The notes under the pieces were generated by a model. The model searched no databases, had not been told where the DNA came from, and saw only the letters and a program-made list of their open reading frames with translations. Positions 9,310 through 63,978 of a stretch of 64,000 nt of DNA are shown here, piece after piece. Source of the stretch: an uncultured Alphaproteobacteria bacterium (GTDB taxonomy: Bacteria > Pseudomonadota > Alphaproteobacteria > Puniceispirillales > UBA1172); contig OY288107.1 in the NCBI GenBank assembly GCA_958431225.1, positions 693,953 to 757,952 of the forward strand, given 5' to 3'. Positions within the stretch are counted from its first letter, which is position 1, and each line of letters begins with the position of its first letter. Made by a program: the position numbers and the translations under genes.

Positions 9310-9366
9310 TGGGGGATGTCATCCCCCAAACCCCCTGACCGCCGAACGCGGCGGGGCGTTTTTTGG
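9310..9366 (+). repeat. Structured 3'-end element, copy 1
   Basis: The element starts at the base after the soeC stop. Hairpin 1 is GGGGGAT/ATCCCCC (9311-9327). After an A3-C5 linker, hairpin 2 has stem CCGCCG/CGGCGG around loop AACG (9339-9354), followed by GGGCG, six T residues and GG. It probably terminates the taurine operon. The T tract points into the restriction-modification islet, and copy 2 faces it from the other side. Confidence 0.88.
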
Positions 9367-9377
9367 TTTTGTAATAA

Positions 9378-11754: not shown

Positions 11755-11781
11755 TACGATTATGCACGGGAGTGACGGCAA

Positions 11782-11848
11782 GCACCAAAAATTCGCGGCA
11801 CGGCGTTCCGTGCTCGGGGGGTTTGGGGGGCGACGCGCCCCCATATCA
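11782..11848 (-). repeat. Structured 3'-end element, copy 2
   Basis: The element begins at the base after the mttB stop, in mttB sense. Hairpin 1 is GGGGGCG/CGCCCCC, with C-G pairs replacing the A-T pairs of copy 1. Hairpin 2 is GCACGG-AACG-CCGTGC (11813-11798), followed by CGAATTTTTGGTGC. The T tract faces the restriction-modification islet, making an inverted pair with copy 1. Confidence 0.88.
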
Positions 11849-19117: not shown

Positions 19118-19174
19118 TGGGGGTTTCACCCCCAAACCCCCGACCGCCGAACGCGGCGGAGCGAATTTTTGGCG
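19118..19174 (+). repeat. Structured 3'-end element, copy 3
   Basis: The element starts at the base after the cyclophilin stop. Hairpin 1 is the short form GGGGG-TTTCA-CCCCC. Hairpin 2 is CCGCCG-AACG-CGGCGG (19144-19159), followed by AGCGAATTTTTGGCG. A palindrome GGCGTACGCC overlaps its end (19171-19180). It faces copy 4 across an islet holding one unknown membrane protein. Confidence 0.88.
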
Positions 19175-19207
19175 TACGCCATAACGCCCCCAGCCACGCT
19201 AAGCATC

Positions 19208-19762: not shown

Positions 19763-19917
19763 ACTTTCACCCTAAAACGCTTTGCCATCATTTTTATAGC
19801 ATCCATCAAAACCGCGCCACTGCGATTCTGAAAGCTTTCATTGCCATAAACAATGCTAGCCCAAACCATTTGAAATGCAAAGAGAGCAAGAAGTATTTTT
19901 TGAACCGTAGCGCTCAT
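19735..19917 (-). CDS. Possible small membrane protein
   Basis: A 60-codon open frame begins MSATVQKILLALFAFQ and would place one hydrophobic helix at its N-terminus, followed by a basic tail. It overlaps the end of the convergent membrane-protein gene by 28 bases. There is no clear ribosome site. It may be a real small gene of the islet or a chance frame. Confidence 0.2.
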   Translation of the reverse strand: MSATVQKILLALFAFQMVWASIVYGNESFQNRSGAVLMDAIKMMAKRFRVKVHFISALSV

Positions 19918-19949
19918 CGGTTGTTGAAAAAAGAGGCACCGTGCGTAAT

Positions 19950-20035
19950 GGCATACGCCAAAAATTCGCTCCACCGCGTTCGGTGGCGCCCCGCCGCGTT
20001 CGGCGGTCAGGGGGTTTGGGGGATGAAATCCCCCA
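19950..20035 (-). repeat. Structured 3'-end element, copy 4 (double hairpin 2)
   Basis: The element starts ten bases after the pyruvate kinase stop, in pyk sense. Hairpin 1 is GGGGGAT/ATCCCCC. It then carries two versions of hairpin 2 in tandem: CCGCCG-AACG-CGGCGG (20006-19991) and CCACCG-AACG-CGGTGG (19986-19971). Five T residues and GGCG follow. The two adjacent stems differ by a paired change (G-C to A-T), direct evidence that pairing is conserved. Confidence 0.88.
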
Positions 20036-21978: not shown

Positions 21979-22038
21979 TGGGGGATTTCACCCCCCAAAC
22001 CCCCCGACCGCCGAACGCGGTGGGGCGGTTTTTTGGTG
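21979..22038 (+). repeat. Structured 3'-end element, copy 5
   Basis: Hairpin 1 is GGGGG paired with a six-C run. Hairpin 2 is CCGCCG-AACG-CGGTGG (22008-22023) with one G-T wobble, followed by GGCGG, six T residues and GGTG. The downstream flank GGTGCTTGCCGT-ACT matches the flank of copy 2. It is the left boundary of the second defence islet. Confidence 0.87.
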
Positions 22039-22080
22039 CTTGCCGTAACTGACCGCGCCCTTTTCTTTGACAACCGATGA

Positions 22081-22144
22081 CCGCGAAAATTCAAAAAATA
22101 CCTCGCGGGACGCCACGGAACGCCGTGGAGCGAATTTTTGGTGC
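22081..22144 (+). repeat. Structured element, copy 6 (second half only), with an adjacent hairpin
   Basis: Only hairpin 2 (CCACGG-AACG-CCGTGG, 22113-22128) and the AGCGAATTTTTGGTGCG end are present; the G5/C5 hairpin is missing. In its place a different stem, CCGCGA paired with TCGCGG (22081-22086 with 22103-22108), sits just upstream. The flank that follows, GGTGCGTGGGGTTGCGTTTTG, is nearly repeated after copy 8. Confidence 0.8.
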
Positions 22145-22172
22145 GTGGGGTTGCGTTTTGTGCATAATCGTA

Positions 22173-22222: not shown

Positions 22223-23236
22223 ATGAATTCAGATAGAAATAAAAACCGAACGCTTACTTCTGCTAGGAAGAACAAGAATGACGAATTCTATACTTGTCTG
22301 CGTGACATTGAAAATGAATTGAAACACTACAAACCGCATTTCAAAGGTAAGGTCGTTTATTGTAATTGCGATGATCCTCGTGTTTCTAATTTCTTTGAAT
22401 ATTTTGCAGAAAATTTTGAAGTCCTTGGCTTGAAAAAACTAATTGCAAGCTGCTACAAGAATGACGACATTGATTTATTCAGCAACCACGATAAAGAAAA
22501 AGCGGTTTATCTTGTCTATGAAGGCGATAAAAACAAAAATAAAATTGTTGATGATGAAGAAATTGAAGTTTTGCCTATGAAAGGGGACGGCGATTTTCGC
22601 AGTGATGAATGTATTGCCATTTTAAAAGAGGCGGACATCATTTGCACCAATCCCCCCTTCAGTTTATTTCGTGAATATGTTACGCATTTGATGAAATATA
22701 AGAAAGATTTTCTTATTATTGGAAATCAAAATGCAATCACTTACAAAGATATTTTTCCCCTGATACAAGGCAATAAACTTTGGCTTGGCGTGAATAATGG
22801 CGCAAAAGAATATGTTATATCAGAGGAATTTGCTAAAGAATTTCCTAACAAGGTTCATCGCACTGATGATGGGAAATCCTATACAAAAATGGGGAACACG
22901 TGCTGGTTCACGAATCTGGATATCAAAAAACGTCATGAAAAACTAGAATCCTATCTATACAAAGAGTATAATGACGCAGATTACCCAAAATATGACAACT
23001 ATGATGCTATAAATGTTAATAAAACAAAAGAGATTCCAGTGAACTACGGGGGAGCAATGGGCGTGCCGATTTCTTTCCTAGATAAATATAATCCCGATGA
23101 ATTTGAGATTGTCAACGCAAACGATATACGGGTAAATGACCGTGTCCCTCAAAAACCCCATGGGCTTATCAAGGACACAGACGGCACTATTAATGGCAAA
23201 CCCACTTATGTGCGCATTGTGATAAAGAGGAGGTAA
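22223..23236 (+). CDS. EcoRI-family adenine-specific DNA methyltransferase
   Basis: This 337-residue enzyme resembles the EcoRI methylase family (PF13651) of N6-adenine methyltransferases. The N-terminal pattern NDEFYTCLRDIENELKHY, the FKGKVVYCNCDDPRVSNFF segment and the catalytic NPPF (residues 143-146) followed by SLFREYV fit the family. I chose ATG 22223 because AGGAG lies eight bases upstream; the longer open frame reaches back through the repeat and promoter and is not coding. The start codon overlaps a GAATTC (22225-22230), and another is at 22283-22288. The gene is clearly A+T rich and is followed two bases later by a DUF262-HNH gene rather than by an EcoRI-like nuclease. The exact recognition site is not deducible. 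Confidence 0.9.
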   Translation: MNSDRNKNRTLTSARKNKNDEFYTCLRDIENELKHYKPHFKGKVVYCNCDDPRVSNFFEYFAENFEVLGLKKLIASCYKNDDIDLFSNHDKEKAVYLVYEGDKNKNKIVDDEEIEVLPMKGDGDFRSDECIAILKEADIICTNPPFSLFREYVTHLMKYKKDFLIIGNQNAITYKDIFPLIQGNKLWLGVNNGAKEYVISEEFAKEFPNKVHRTDDGKSYTKMGNTCWFTNLDIKKRHEKLESYLYKEYNDADYPKYDNYDAINVNKTKEIPVNYGGAMGVPISFLDKYNPDEFEIVNANDIRVNDRVPQKPHGLIKDTDGTINGKPTYVRIVIKRR

Positions 23237-23238
23237 TC

Positions 23239-24366
23239 ATGGTTATGAAAATCAAAAAAAAGCAAATCACCGTAAAAGACCTTAAAGAGGATTATGTAAA
23301 TAACGCCGAAAAAGGTGTTGTCGGCTATGGCGGCAAGCTAGATATTCGCCCGCCATATCAAAGGGAGTTTGTCTATGATGACGACAAAAGAGATGCGGTT
23401 ATAAACAGCATTATTCAAGGCTATCCTTTGAATATCATGTATTGGAACAAAAAATCCGATGGAAGTTTTGAAGTGCTTGATGGACAGCAGCGGACAATTT
23501 CAATTTGCGAATATGTTCATGGTAATTTTAGCTTTAACAAGAAAGTTTTTAGCAGGCAATTTGATGACATACAGGATAAAATCCTAAAGTATCCACTGGA
23601 TATTTATGTATGTGAAGGACCCGAAAGCGAAAGGCTTGAGTGGTTTAAGATTATCAATATGGCAGGGGTAGAACTCACAAAGCAAGAAATGCGTAATGCT
23701 ATCTATGCTGGACCTTGGACAGCTGAAGCCAAAATAAAATTTTCTAAAACAGGTTGCCCTGCATATCAAATAGGACACAAATTTGTTCCAAATGGCAAAT
23801 CGCCTATTCGTCAAGAGTATTTGGAACTTGCCCTAAAATGGATTAGCAATGACGACATTGCCGAATATATGAATCAACACGCAAAAGACACCGATTGCAA
23901 TGAACTCTGGCTTTATTGGGAAAACATGATTGCGTGGATAAATGCAACCTTTATTAGCGATGAAAACGAAGATTATAGCAACGAGATGAAAAATGTTGCG
24001 TGGGGCGAACTTTTTAACAAATACGGCAAAAAGACGCTGGATGCGAAAAAAATACAGAAAAGGGTTGCCGAACTTTTCCTAGATGACGATGTGCAGAAAT
24101 ATAGCGGGATTTATCCTTATGTTTTAGATGGTGATGAGAGGCATCTAAATATAAGGCTATTTGACAGGAGACAAAAAACACAAGCCTATAAAAAGCAAAA
24201 GGGAATTTGCGCCAACAAAAAAAACTGCCCAAGAAAAGGCAAAAAATGCACCCCAGATGAAATGCACGCAGACCATATAACCCCATGGAGCAAGAATGGA
24301 AAAACTATATCAGAAAATTGCCAAATGTTATGTGCTGACTGCAACCGCAGAAAAGGTGCAGTGTAA
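23239..24366 (+). CDS. DUF262 protein with C-terminal HNH nuclease domain (GmrSD-like)
   Basis: This 375-residue protein has an N-terminal DUF262 domain and a C-terminal HNH endonuclease. The DUF262 hallmarks are PPYQREFVYDDDKRDAVI near residues 38-55 and DGQQR at 81-85, the motif tied to nucleotide-dependent activity in GmrS, BrxU and SspE. The HNH part begins near residue 320, with cysteines (CANKKNCP, GKKC) and the core HADHITPWSKNGKT, NCQMLCADCNRRKG. A strong ribosome site (GAGGAGG) sits five bases before the ATG, two bases after the methyltransferase. Known DUF262 nucleases act in type IV, BREX-linked or phosphorothioate systems, so this could be the restriction arm protected by the neighbouring adenine methyltransferase. 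That role is inference from pairing. Confidence 0.87.
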   Translation: MVMKIKKKQITVKDLKEDYVNNAEKGVVGYGGKLDIRPPYQREFVYDDDKRDAVINSIIQGYPLNIMYWNKKSDGSFEVLDGQQRTISICEYVHGNFSFNKKVFSRQFDDIQDKILKYPLDIYVCEGPESERLEWFKIINMAGVELTKQEMRNAIYAGPWTAEAKIKFSKTGCPAYQIGHKFVPNGKSPIRQEYLELALKWISNDDIAEYMNQHAKDTDCNELWLYWENMIAWINATFISDENEDYSNEMKNVAWGELFNKYGKKTLDAKKIQKRVAELFLDDDVQKYSGIYPYVLDGDERHLNIRLFDRRQKTQAYKKQKGICANKKNCPRKGKKCTPDEMHADHITPWSKNGKTISENCQMLCADCNRRKGAV

Positions 24367-24401
24367 TAGCTTGCATTGCGTAACTATTTTATAGGTGTCT
24401 C

Positions 24402-25154
24402 ATGGCTCTCATCCACGACATTAGATCGGAACTTATTGACATTAGATCAGAACTTCTTGACGATGAGAAAGACGTTGGCTCTATCCTGCGTAAACTCAAG
24501 GCTTTGGCGTCTGAACTTGAAGCGGATGTTCTTGAGGATTGGGTAACACACGAAATTCAAGGATATCCGAAGGGTGCGCCTGTTCCGGACTATCGAAAGG
24601 CGCAAATCATCTACGTAAGAGACTACGTAGATTTTCACCACCAATACAAAAATGCTCCCGTATCTCGTGCTCTAATCGAGCAATACGCAGGGGCGGAATG
24701 GCTGGAACAGAATATTAGATACAGCCTTCCAGAAATTGACTGGATGATGAAAAATATGGATAACAAACATTTTAACATAGACGCTAGCGATCTTAATTTG
24801 CTTCTTCAGTCAAAGGAAATAAACCTCGGTGAAATCAGGGGCATCTTTAATGCTAGTGGCTGTATTAAAATCCAACAAGCAGTTCGTGCCAAGGCTTTGG
24901 ATTTAATTTCAAAAATTGGGAAAGAGATGCCAAGGGACGTCAATATTGACATTGGTGAAAAAGATGCTGAGGTGTCGGCTACCGAGAGCGATGCCGATAG
25001 CAATATTATTCAGCAAAACATCTATGCAAACAGCGTCACTAACATCAATGCGACTGGCGACGGGAATGTCACGCAGGCAGGGGTAGGGGATTCATTTGCA
25101 AATACTCTGATTAAAAAAGTGATCGAGGCAGTCAAGAAATTCCTTGGGCTTTAA
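24402..25154 (+). CDS. AbiTii-domain abortive-infection protein
   Basis: The first 120 residues of this 250-residue protein fit the AbiTii domain: an N-terminal helix, ILRKLKALASELEADVLEDW, then EIQGYPKGAPVPDYR. The tail contains a glycine/asparagine-rich segment (NINATGDGNVTQAG) and ends in a short basic amphipathic helix (IKKVIEAVKKFLGL). A six-residue DIRSEL unit is duplicated at residues 6-18, reflecting a recent DNA duplication. It follows the DUF262-HNH gene by 35 bases, so the three probably form one operon. AbiTii proteins are linked to abortive phage defence but their mechanism is unclear. Membrane action through the C-terminal helix is a guess. Confidence 0.78.
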   Translation: MALIHDIRSELIDIRSELLDDEKDVGSILRKLKALASELEADVLEDWVTHEIQGYPKGAPVPDYRKAQIIYVRDYVDFHHQYKNAPVSRALIEQYAGAEWLEQNIRYSLPEIDWMMKNMDNKHFNIDASDLNLLLQSKEINLGEIRGIFNASGCIKIQQAVRAKALDLISKIGKEMPRDVNIDIGEKDAEVSATESDADSNIIQQNIYANSVTNINATGDGNVTQAGVGDSFANTLIKKVIEAVKKFLGL

Positions 25155-25156
25155 TA

Positions 25157-25216
25157 GCACCAAAAAACCGCTGCACGGCGTTCCGTGCTCGGGGGGTGTG
25201 GGGGATGACATCCCCC
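25157..25216 (-). repeat. Structured element, copy 7 (inverted to the preceding gene)
   Basis: Reading on the minus strand, hairpin 1 is GGGGGAT/ATCCCCC and hairpin 2 is GCACGG-AACG-CCGTGC (25188-25173), followed by AGCGG, six T residues and GGTGC. Its T-tract end lies three bases from the AbiTii stop, so it points into the islet and forms the inverted partner of copy 5. Confidence 0.87.
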
Positions 25217-25325: not shown

Positions 25326-25982
25326 ATGTTGCTATTTTACACTCGTGATCTTGATCCGTATTTGGCGGAGGTTGGTCGGCGGGCTTGTGTTTATTTTCAT
25401 GATCGCCTGATAGCGCCTACGCGCCGGGGTGGTTTGCGGGTTGATTTTGGTTTGGTTGATAATCCGACTCGTTTGGATAGTTCGGTTTTGTTGGATTTGC
25501 CTGATGCGGATGCGTTATCGGGGATGCATCGTCGGCGTCCTGTTCCGCGTCAAGATTTCCGCCTTATCACGAGTCGCAAAACGACACTTGATGCGACGAT
25601 TTTGGGGTTAGCGCGTAATTGGGTGCGCCTTGCTTCTTTGAGCAGTGGGCGTTTGATGTTGGTGCGTAAGAACGACCGTGCCGGGACGATTATGGTGTGG
25701 TGGCTCGGCGAAAAATTGGGTGCTTTGTGCGACATTCCGTATCAACAGCGCCCGTGGTTGCGCGATGAGGAACAAGTCGCCCCGCTAATCAAAACCGAAT
25801 TCAGCGAAATTTTTTTGAAAGGCAAAGCATTAAAATTGGGGCCGATTACGCGCATTGATATGCCCCTTTATATGGTCGCGGTTGCAAGCGATGCGCGCAT
25901 AGAACCCCCCACCACGAGCAAGCATCCGCCTTTAAGTCCCGCCGCCGAATCCATGCTCAAAACATTAAATGCGCGCCAATAG
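25326..25982 (+). CDS. Unknown soluble protein
   Basis: I do not recognise this 218-residue protein. It is rich in arginine and leucine, lacks a signal peptide or membrane helix, and has short motifs such as DLPDADALSGMHRRRP and IMVWWLGEKLGALC but no catalytic signature. The composition (early codons unusually G/T rich, later ones C rich) is closer to core genes than to the defence islet to its left. Its stop lies 14 bases from the end of the convergent caiD-like gene. A promoter may lie in the C- and A-rich gap after element copy 7, but I cannot pick it out. The ATG follows a GAGG site. Confidence 0.7.
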   Translation: MLLFYTRDLDPYLAEVGRRACVYFHDRLIAPTRRGGLRVDFGLVDNPTRLDSSVLLDLPDADALSGMHRRRPVPRQDFRLITSRKTTLDATILGLARNWVRLASLSSGRLMLVRKNDRAGTIMVWWLGEKLGALCDIPYQQRPWLRDEEQVAPLIKTEFSEIFLKGKALKLGPITRIDMPLYMVAVASDARIEPPTTSKHPPLSPAAESMLKTLNARQ

Positions 25983-63890: not shown

Positions 63891-63948
63891 TGGGGGTTTC
63901 ACCCCCAAACCCCCGACCACCGAACGCGGTGGAGCGAATTTTTGGTGC
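63891..63948 (+). repeat. Structured element, copy 8
   Basis: Hairpin 1 is GGGGG-TTTCA-CCCCC. Hairpin 2 is CCACCG-AACG-CGGTGG (63917-63932), followed by AGCGAATTTTTGGTGCG. The next bases repeat the flank of copy 6. Its T tract faces right, where a minus-strand gene seems to end, so it may be the left boundary of a fourth islet beyond the window. Confidence 0.85.
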
Positions 63949-63978
63949 GTGGGGTTGCGTTTTGCGCCCTTCTGTTTT

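Follow-up and report, generated by a model that had tools for sequence, protein, structure and literature searches.

A conserved DUF262-HNH protein paired with an EcoRI-family methyltransferase whose probable recognition segments are swapped

Results

Genetic organization of the locus

The window, that is, the whole stretch of 64,000 nucleotides that was analysed from the genome of an uncultured alphaproteobacterium, contains three genes arranged head to tail on the forward strand. The first one (M, 22223-23236) starts with an ATG behind GAGGAG and encodes an EcoRI-family N6-adenine DNA methyltransferase of 337 amino acids (PF13651, EcoRI_methylase, E 4e-131). The second (R, 23239-24366) begins 2 nt past the stop codon of M and encodes a protein of 375 amino acids with a DUF262 (GmrSD_N) domain and an HNH nuclease domain. 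The third (24402-25154) starts 35 nt after R and encodes an AbiTii-domain protein (PF18864, E 2.6e-27). This arrangement had been described in the initial annotation and was borne out by the Pfam matches.

The block formed by the three genes is AT-rich, with a GC content of 34-45% compared to 50-60% in its flanks. It is absent from six genomes of the same genus, in which a sufU-like gene adjoins the homologue of 25326-25982. As no PF13651 methyltransferase was found in the 60 relatives searched, the block was probably acquired by horizontal transfer. A 61-nt inverted repeat brackets it, with a left arm at 21980-22040 on the forward strand and a right arm at 25156-25216 on the reverse strand, which are 85% complementary to each other. 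Both copies belong to a dispersed family of GC-rich palindromic intergenic repeats of the host genome, represented in the window at 9311-9367, 11771-11833, 19119-19185, 19890-20034, 21980-22150, 25156-25216 and 63892-63951. No member of this family was seen in the stretches sampled from the relatives G006 and G007.

Predicted structure of R

R matched PF03235 (GmrSD_N, E 5e-19) and PF01844 (HNH, E 1.5e-10), and the PADLOC model REase_II (PDLC03418) covered its full length (E 2e-117). In an AlphaFold2 model (pLDDT 91.6), the protein is predicted to consist of a DUF262 domain (residues 1-144, 23239-23670), a helical middle part and a C-terminal HNH domain (residues 307-375, 24157-24363), the latter with invariant D345, H346, N360 and N369. 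The modelled DUF262 domain appears to be an NTP-binding domain of the ParB/Srx fold, closest to that of BrxU (Z 9.1, 3.3 Å over 124 residues) and also similar to that of SspE (Z 7.5). It includes the nucleotide motif DGQQR (residues 81-85, 23479-23493), invariant in A1 and A3; in BrxU, a motif of this type binds and hydrolyses nucleotide (PMC8565348).

With no relative exceeding 57% identity, the R protein of the window is rather divergent, but it retains all the catalytic residues and differs at only 3 of 69 highly conserved positions. Throughout the family, R is conserved along its whole length, with two moderately variable stretches (residues 261-280 and 321-340) that could contribute to specificity.

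The M-R pair is the conserved unit

Relatives were searched for in collections of plasmids, phages, species genomes and viral contigs; a scan with a single sequence gave no viral relatives, and these were recovered by an alignment-based scan. The M-R pair was recovered from hundreds of genomes, far above chance, with representatives in Bacillota, Actinomycetota, Bacteroidota, Pseudomonadota, Patescibacteria, Saccharibacteria, Spirochaetes, an archaeal bin and a Flavobacterium phage, many of these loci coming from metagenome-assembled genomes, metagenome bins or viral contigs. Counts were based on the 80 top-ranking R loci of the genomic collection and the 80 of the viral one. M lay beside R at every locus with enough upstream sequence to be testable (78 of 78 genomic and 80 of 80 viral), and at 156 of these 158 loci it was upstream. 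Starting from M, R was missing at 32 of 77 testable viral loci, and in 398 genomes of Pseudomonadota every intact M (three, plus the host's own two) was accompanied by R.

Such asymmetry, with R never alone and M sometimes alone, is that of a toxin-like nuclease in need of its methylase, as in a restriction pair. The obligate pairing and the REase_II match to R agree with the proposal of the initial annotation that the locus could be a restriction system whose effector is the DUF262-HNH protein. The same annotation had likened R to proteins that sense nucleotides or modified DNA, such as GmrSD, BrxU and SspE. A cutting of modified DNA by R, as by GmrSD and BrxU, was not supported, as R was never without a methyltransferase at the 158 testable loci; an obligate M beside R together with frequent orphan M genes argues against R cutting M's own mark.

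Two full-length M genes precede a single R at four loci, two of them on one viral contig. No M-R fusion was found. The one long candidate, the Lactiplantibacillus plasmid protein at L322 2180-4282, was rejected as it is actually an EcoRI-family adenine methyltransferase fused to a cytosine-C5 methyltransferase. Regarding plasmid-borne loci, the resistance gene optrA separates M from R in an Enterococcus dispar plasmid (L014 61-4699), and in E. faecium (L017 1-6143) it lies close to the pair.

A second M-R pair is present on the minus strand of the same 2.33-Mb genome (G000:C1 457830-460059, equivalent to L007 4831-7060), and an empty-site comparison revealed that its flanking genes are not conserved. 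The R protein of this pair is a more typical family member, reaching 71% identity. Next to the pair lies a gene for a protein of 182 amino acids that matches no Pfam family and appears to have hydrophobic, membrane-like stretches.

AbiTii seldom accompanies the pair

The initial annotation also raised the idea of a three-gene system, in which AbiTii would be an abortive back-up of the M-R pair. The position of AbiTii 35 nt downstream of R, within the same insertion and the same inverted repeats, is consistent with this, as is the presence of a second AbiTii gene 1.1 kb downstream of the pair in the E. faecium plasmid pBN83-1 (L017). However, when all loci were searched with the AbiTii profile, the domain was absent from the remaining pair loci, about 170 in number, and no AbiTii gene adjoins the second pair of the host. 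Clustering of the neighbouring genes likewise yielded no recurrent third component or specificity subunit, but integrases, recombinases and small regulators. A conserved trio was ruled out by these two analyses. Therefore, co-occurrence in other genomes upheld M and R as a conserved pair and not AbiTii as its third gene; the latter is an accessory passenger carried by the same insertion, and a role as back-up of the pair is very improbable.

Probable target-recognition domains of M

M was matched over its full length by the PADLOC model MTase_II (PDLC03297, E 3e-121) and is about 50% identical to M.EcoRI of E. coli. Its catalytic motif NPPF (residues 143-146, 22649-22660) is invariant in all the aligned relatives. 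When 157 M-R pairs were aligned, two hypervariable segments were located within the conserved core of M, corresponding to residues 190-226 (22790-22900) and 298-328 (23114-23206) in the numbering of the window protein. Based on their variability, their position and their conservation in isospecific EcoRI systems, these segments are probably the target-recognition domains of the enzyme (TRD1 and TRD2, respectively).

The TRD2 of the window belongs to a family common to L236 (72% identity), L015 (62%) and L044 (59%), all three of which have a different TRD1, so that the window M is itself a mosaic. The TRDs of the second pair of the host differ from those of the window. Both EcoRI-type recognition segments are carried by the orphan viral methyltransferases L135, L136, L138, L157 and L158, which possibly protect phage DNA against EcoRI.

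The abundance of palindromes was calculated from stretches of the host genome (L277-L296 plus the window) covering 464-477 kb. GAATTC is not avoided (O/E 1.03), and the TRDs of the window M are unlike those of EcoRI; on these two grounds GAATTC was discarded as an unlikely target of the pair. CAATTG is avoided (O/E 0.16); many further palindromes are avoided as well, and it was not attributed to the pair. Avoidance was very strong for GGCC (0.09), GATC (0.19), TCGA (0.20), GTGCAC (0.03) and TCGCGA (0.07). As a whole, palindrome avoidance is much stronger in this host than in two relatives, which suggests a heavy restriction pressure in its lineage.

The probable TRDs of M are swapped next to a conserved R

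As locus pairs are not all independent, swapping was quantified in disjoint pairs and by a count along the R tree, taking as unrelated those TRDs with less than 40% identity. Among 23 disjoint pairs with R proteins at least 80% identical, both TRDs were unrelated in 12, one in seven and none in four. Therefore, at least one TRD had been swapped in 19 of the 23, with R identities of 81-99%. In the pair L038/L027, for instance, R is 98% and the M core 83% identical, whereas TRD1 and TRD2 show 14% and 15% identity. In pairs with swapped TRDs the dN/dS of R was about 0.01-0.1 (dN 0.008 and dS 0.707 for L078/L071), a strong purifying selection which implies that R is selected as a working protein.

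The TRD1 family shifted at least 74 times over the 134 rows of the R tree, not many fewer than the 84.7 (SD 2.6) obtained upon shuffling. A single TRD1 family is found in combination with 23 different families of TRD2, and segments of the M.EcoRI type recur in methyltransferases paired with DUF262-HNH proteins alongside a different second segment. Both TRDs are thus swapped independently of each other and of R, and they constitute recurrent shared families, not drifting sequences. A sliding-window search for a region of R co-varying with the TRDs gave only weak signals (partial r ≤0.11).

Six methyltransferases paired with R.EcoRI were used as a control. Their identities were 61-95% for TRD1, 75-100% for TRD2, 63-90% for the M core and 60-92% for R; thus, the TRDs of true EcoRI systems are about as conserved as the M core, or mostly more, as expected for recognition segments whose nuclease partner has to read the same site. 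A Rhodococcus plasmid EcoRI system (L327 2501-5825) is followed 840 bp downstream by the gene of a large DUF262 protein.

Discussion

Source of the specificity of the pair

Orthodox Type II nucleases read their sites by themselves and are evolutionarily locked (PMC4081073). Freely exchanging the TRDs of the methyltransferase would there be fatal to the host or leave the system disarmed. Exchange of recognition is tolerated where there is a shared reader, be it HsdS of Type I systems, Mod of Type III systems (PMC3983042, PMC3874151) or the one fused protein of MmeI-type enzymes. By analogy with these cases, in which nuclease and methylase depend on the same reader, R most likely takes its target from M. 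We consider it probable from the comparisons above that M supplies the target and R has no sequence recognition of its own, both forming a mobile restriction-modification pair.

One of the two main rivals of M-supplied specificity is an ordinary Type II enzyme, in which R would recognise the site of M on its own and be blocked by its methylation. PADLOC places both proteins in Type II, and the two-gene layout, the obligate M and the frequent orphan M would be found in such a system as well. Nevertheless, R remains 81-99% identical and under strong purifying selection while both TRDs of its partner are replaced, and no such swapping is seen in true EcoRI systems, which makes this explanation quite unlikely.

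The other main rival is a sensor similar to SspE, in which the DUF262 NTPase of R would read N6-methyladenine in any sequence context and decide on a non-specific action of the HNH domain. BrxU and SspE are the nearest matches to the modelled DUF262 fold, proteins of the SspE type are linked to a modification module (PMC12707154), and a protein indifferent to the TRDs would also remain nearly identical while these were swapped. However, R would have to sense sparse methyladenine in unrelated contexts, with interference from the marks of other methylases, and the cutting of modified DNA performed by GmrSD and BrxU would be suicidal here. We regard a context-free sensor as unlikely, though not to the extent of the Type II explanation.

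The swapping of TRDs next to a nearly identical R would also arise if M were a protein antitoxin of R, with its methylation specificity irrelevant to restriction and its TRDs free to vary; the tight coupling of R to M fits this as well. Yet NPPF and the other catalytic residues of M are invariant, and its TRDs form recurrent families, so that such a role for M has very little probability.

Proposed mechanism

For a pair with M-supplied specificity, homology suggests that M would methylate adenine at a site set by its two modular TRDs, thus protecting the host, while R, as an NTP-binding DUF262-HNH nuclease, would destroy unmodified incoming DNA. R would be lethal without M, as suggested by its never occurring alone. 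M, probably in complex with R, would locate the site, and an unmethylated site would trigger cutting by the HNH domain through the nucleotide switch of the DUF262 domain. Exchange of a TRD in M would then shift methylation and restriction together, leaving R untouched. We lean towards considering this a widespread class of restriction of its own kind. Its small methyltransferase would bear two exchangeable recognition modules, in part the same as those of M.EcoRI, and would direct a separate, specificity-free and nucleotide-gated DUF262-HNH nuclease, following the logic of Types I and III with two short genes and no motor.

TRD swapping is the unexpected and most interesting feature of the pair, beyond what the initial annotation could see. 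If R takes its target from M, a single conserved nuclease of 375 residues could be aimed by swapping two short segments of a partner of about 340 residues. DUF262, a domain familiar from Type IV restriction, would through this pair also act in classical self/non-self restriction, and EcoRI, with its immutable nuclease, would come to look like the exception within its methyltransferase family.

Comparison with known systems

The statement that this is not a named system was correct in part: the pair has no name of its own, but it falls under the Type II models of PADLOC, and hundreds of such pairs are filed in databases as ordinary Type II enzymes. No paper describing the pair was found in the open-access text of PMC, where the nearest remarks are generic ones on ParB-HNH proteins near restriction-modification operons (PMC3710099). 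The adjacent full-length matches to MTase_II and REase_II agree with the PADLOC definition of Type II; unlike an orthodox Type II enzyme, R seems to lack a specificity of its own. With the EcoRI system the pair shares the methyltransferase family (PF13651, about 50% identity), the two-gene layout and, piecewise, the TRD families of M.EcoRI. It differs in having a DUF262-HNH partner instead of R.EcoRI, in the order of the genes (M then R, whereas in EcoRI R precedes M) and, for the window M, in the absence of EcoRI TRDs.

GmrSD, BrxU and SspE (DUF262 plus DUF1524) have in common with R a DUF262 ParB/Srx domain with DGQQR and an HNH-type nuclease, but the C-terminal domain of R is a PF01844 HNH according to Pfam, not DUF1524, and R is always paired with its own methyltransferase. 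The Type III systems (Mod-Res, EcoP1/EcoP15) resemble the pair in the variable specificity segment of the methylase and the conserved nuclease subunit (PMC3874151, PMC3983042), although R has no helicase, with only DUF262 and HNH in its 375 amino acids, and M has two separate TRD segments. Finally, the MmeI family of Type IIL enzymes also employs a single recognition module for methylation and cleavage, so that specificity can change safely (PMC4081073); in these enzymes both activities are fused in one protein, whereas here they are encoded by two genes.
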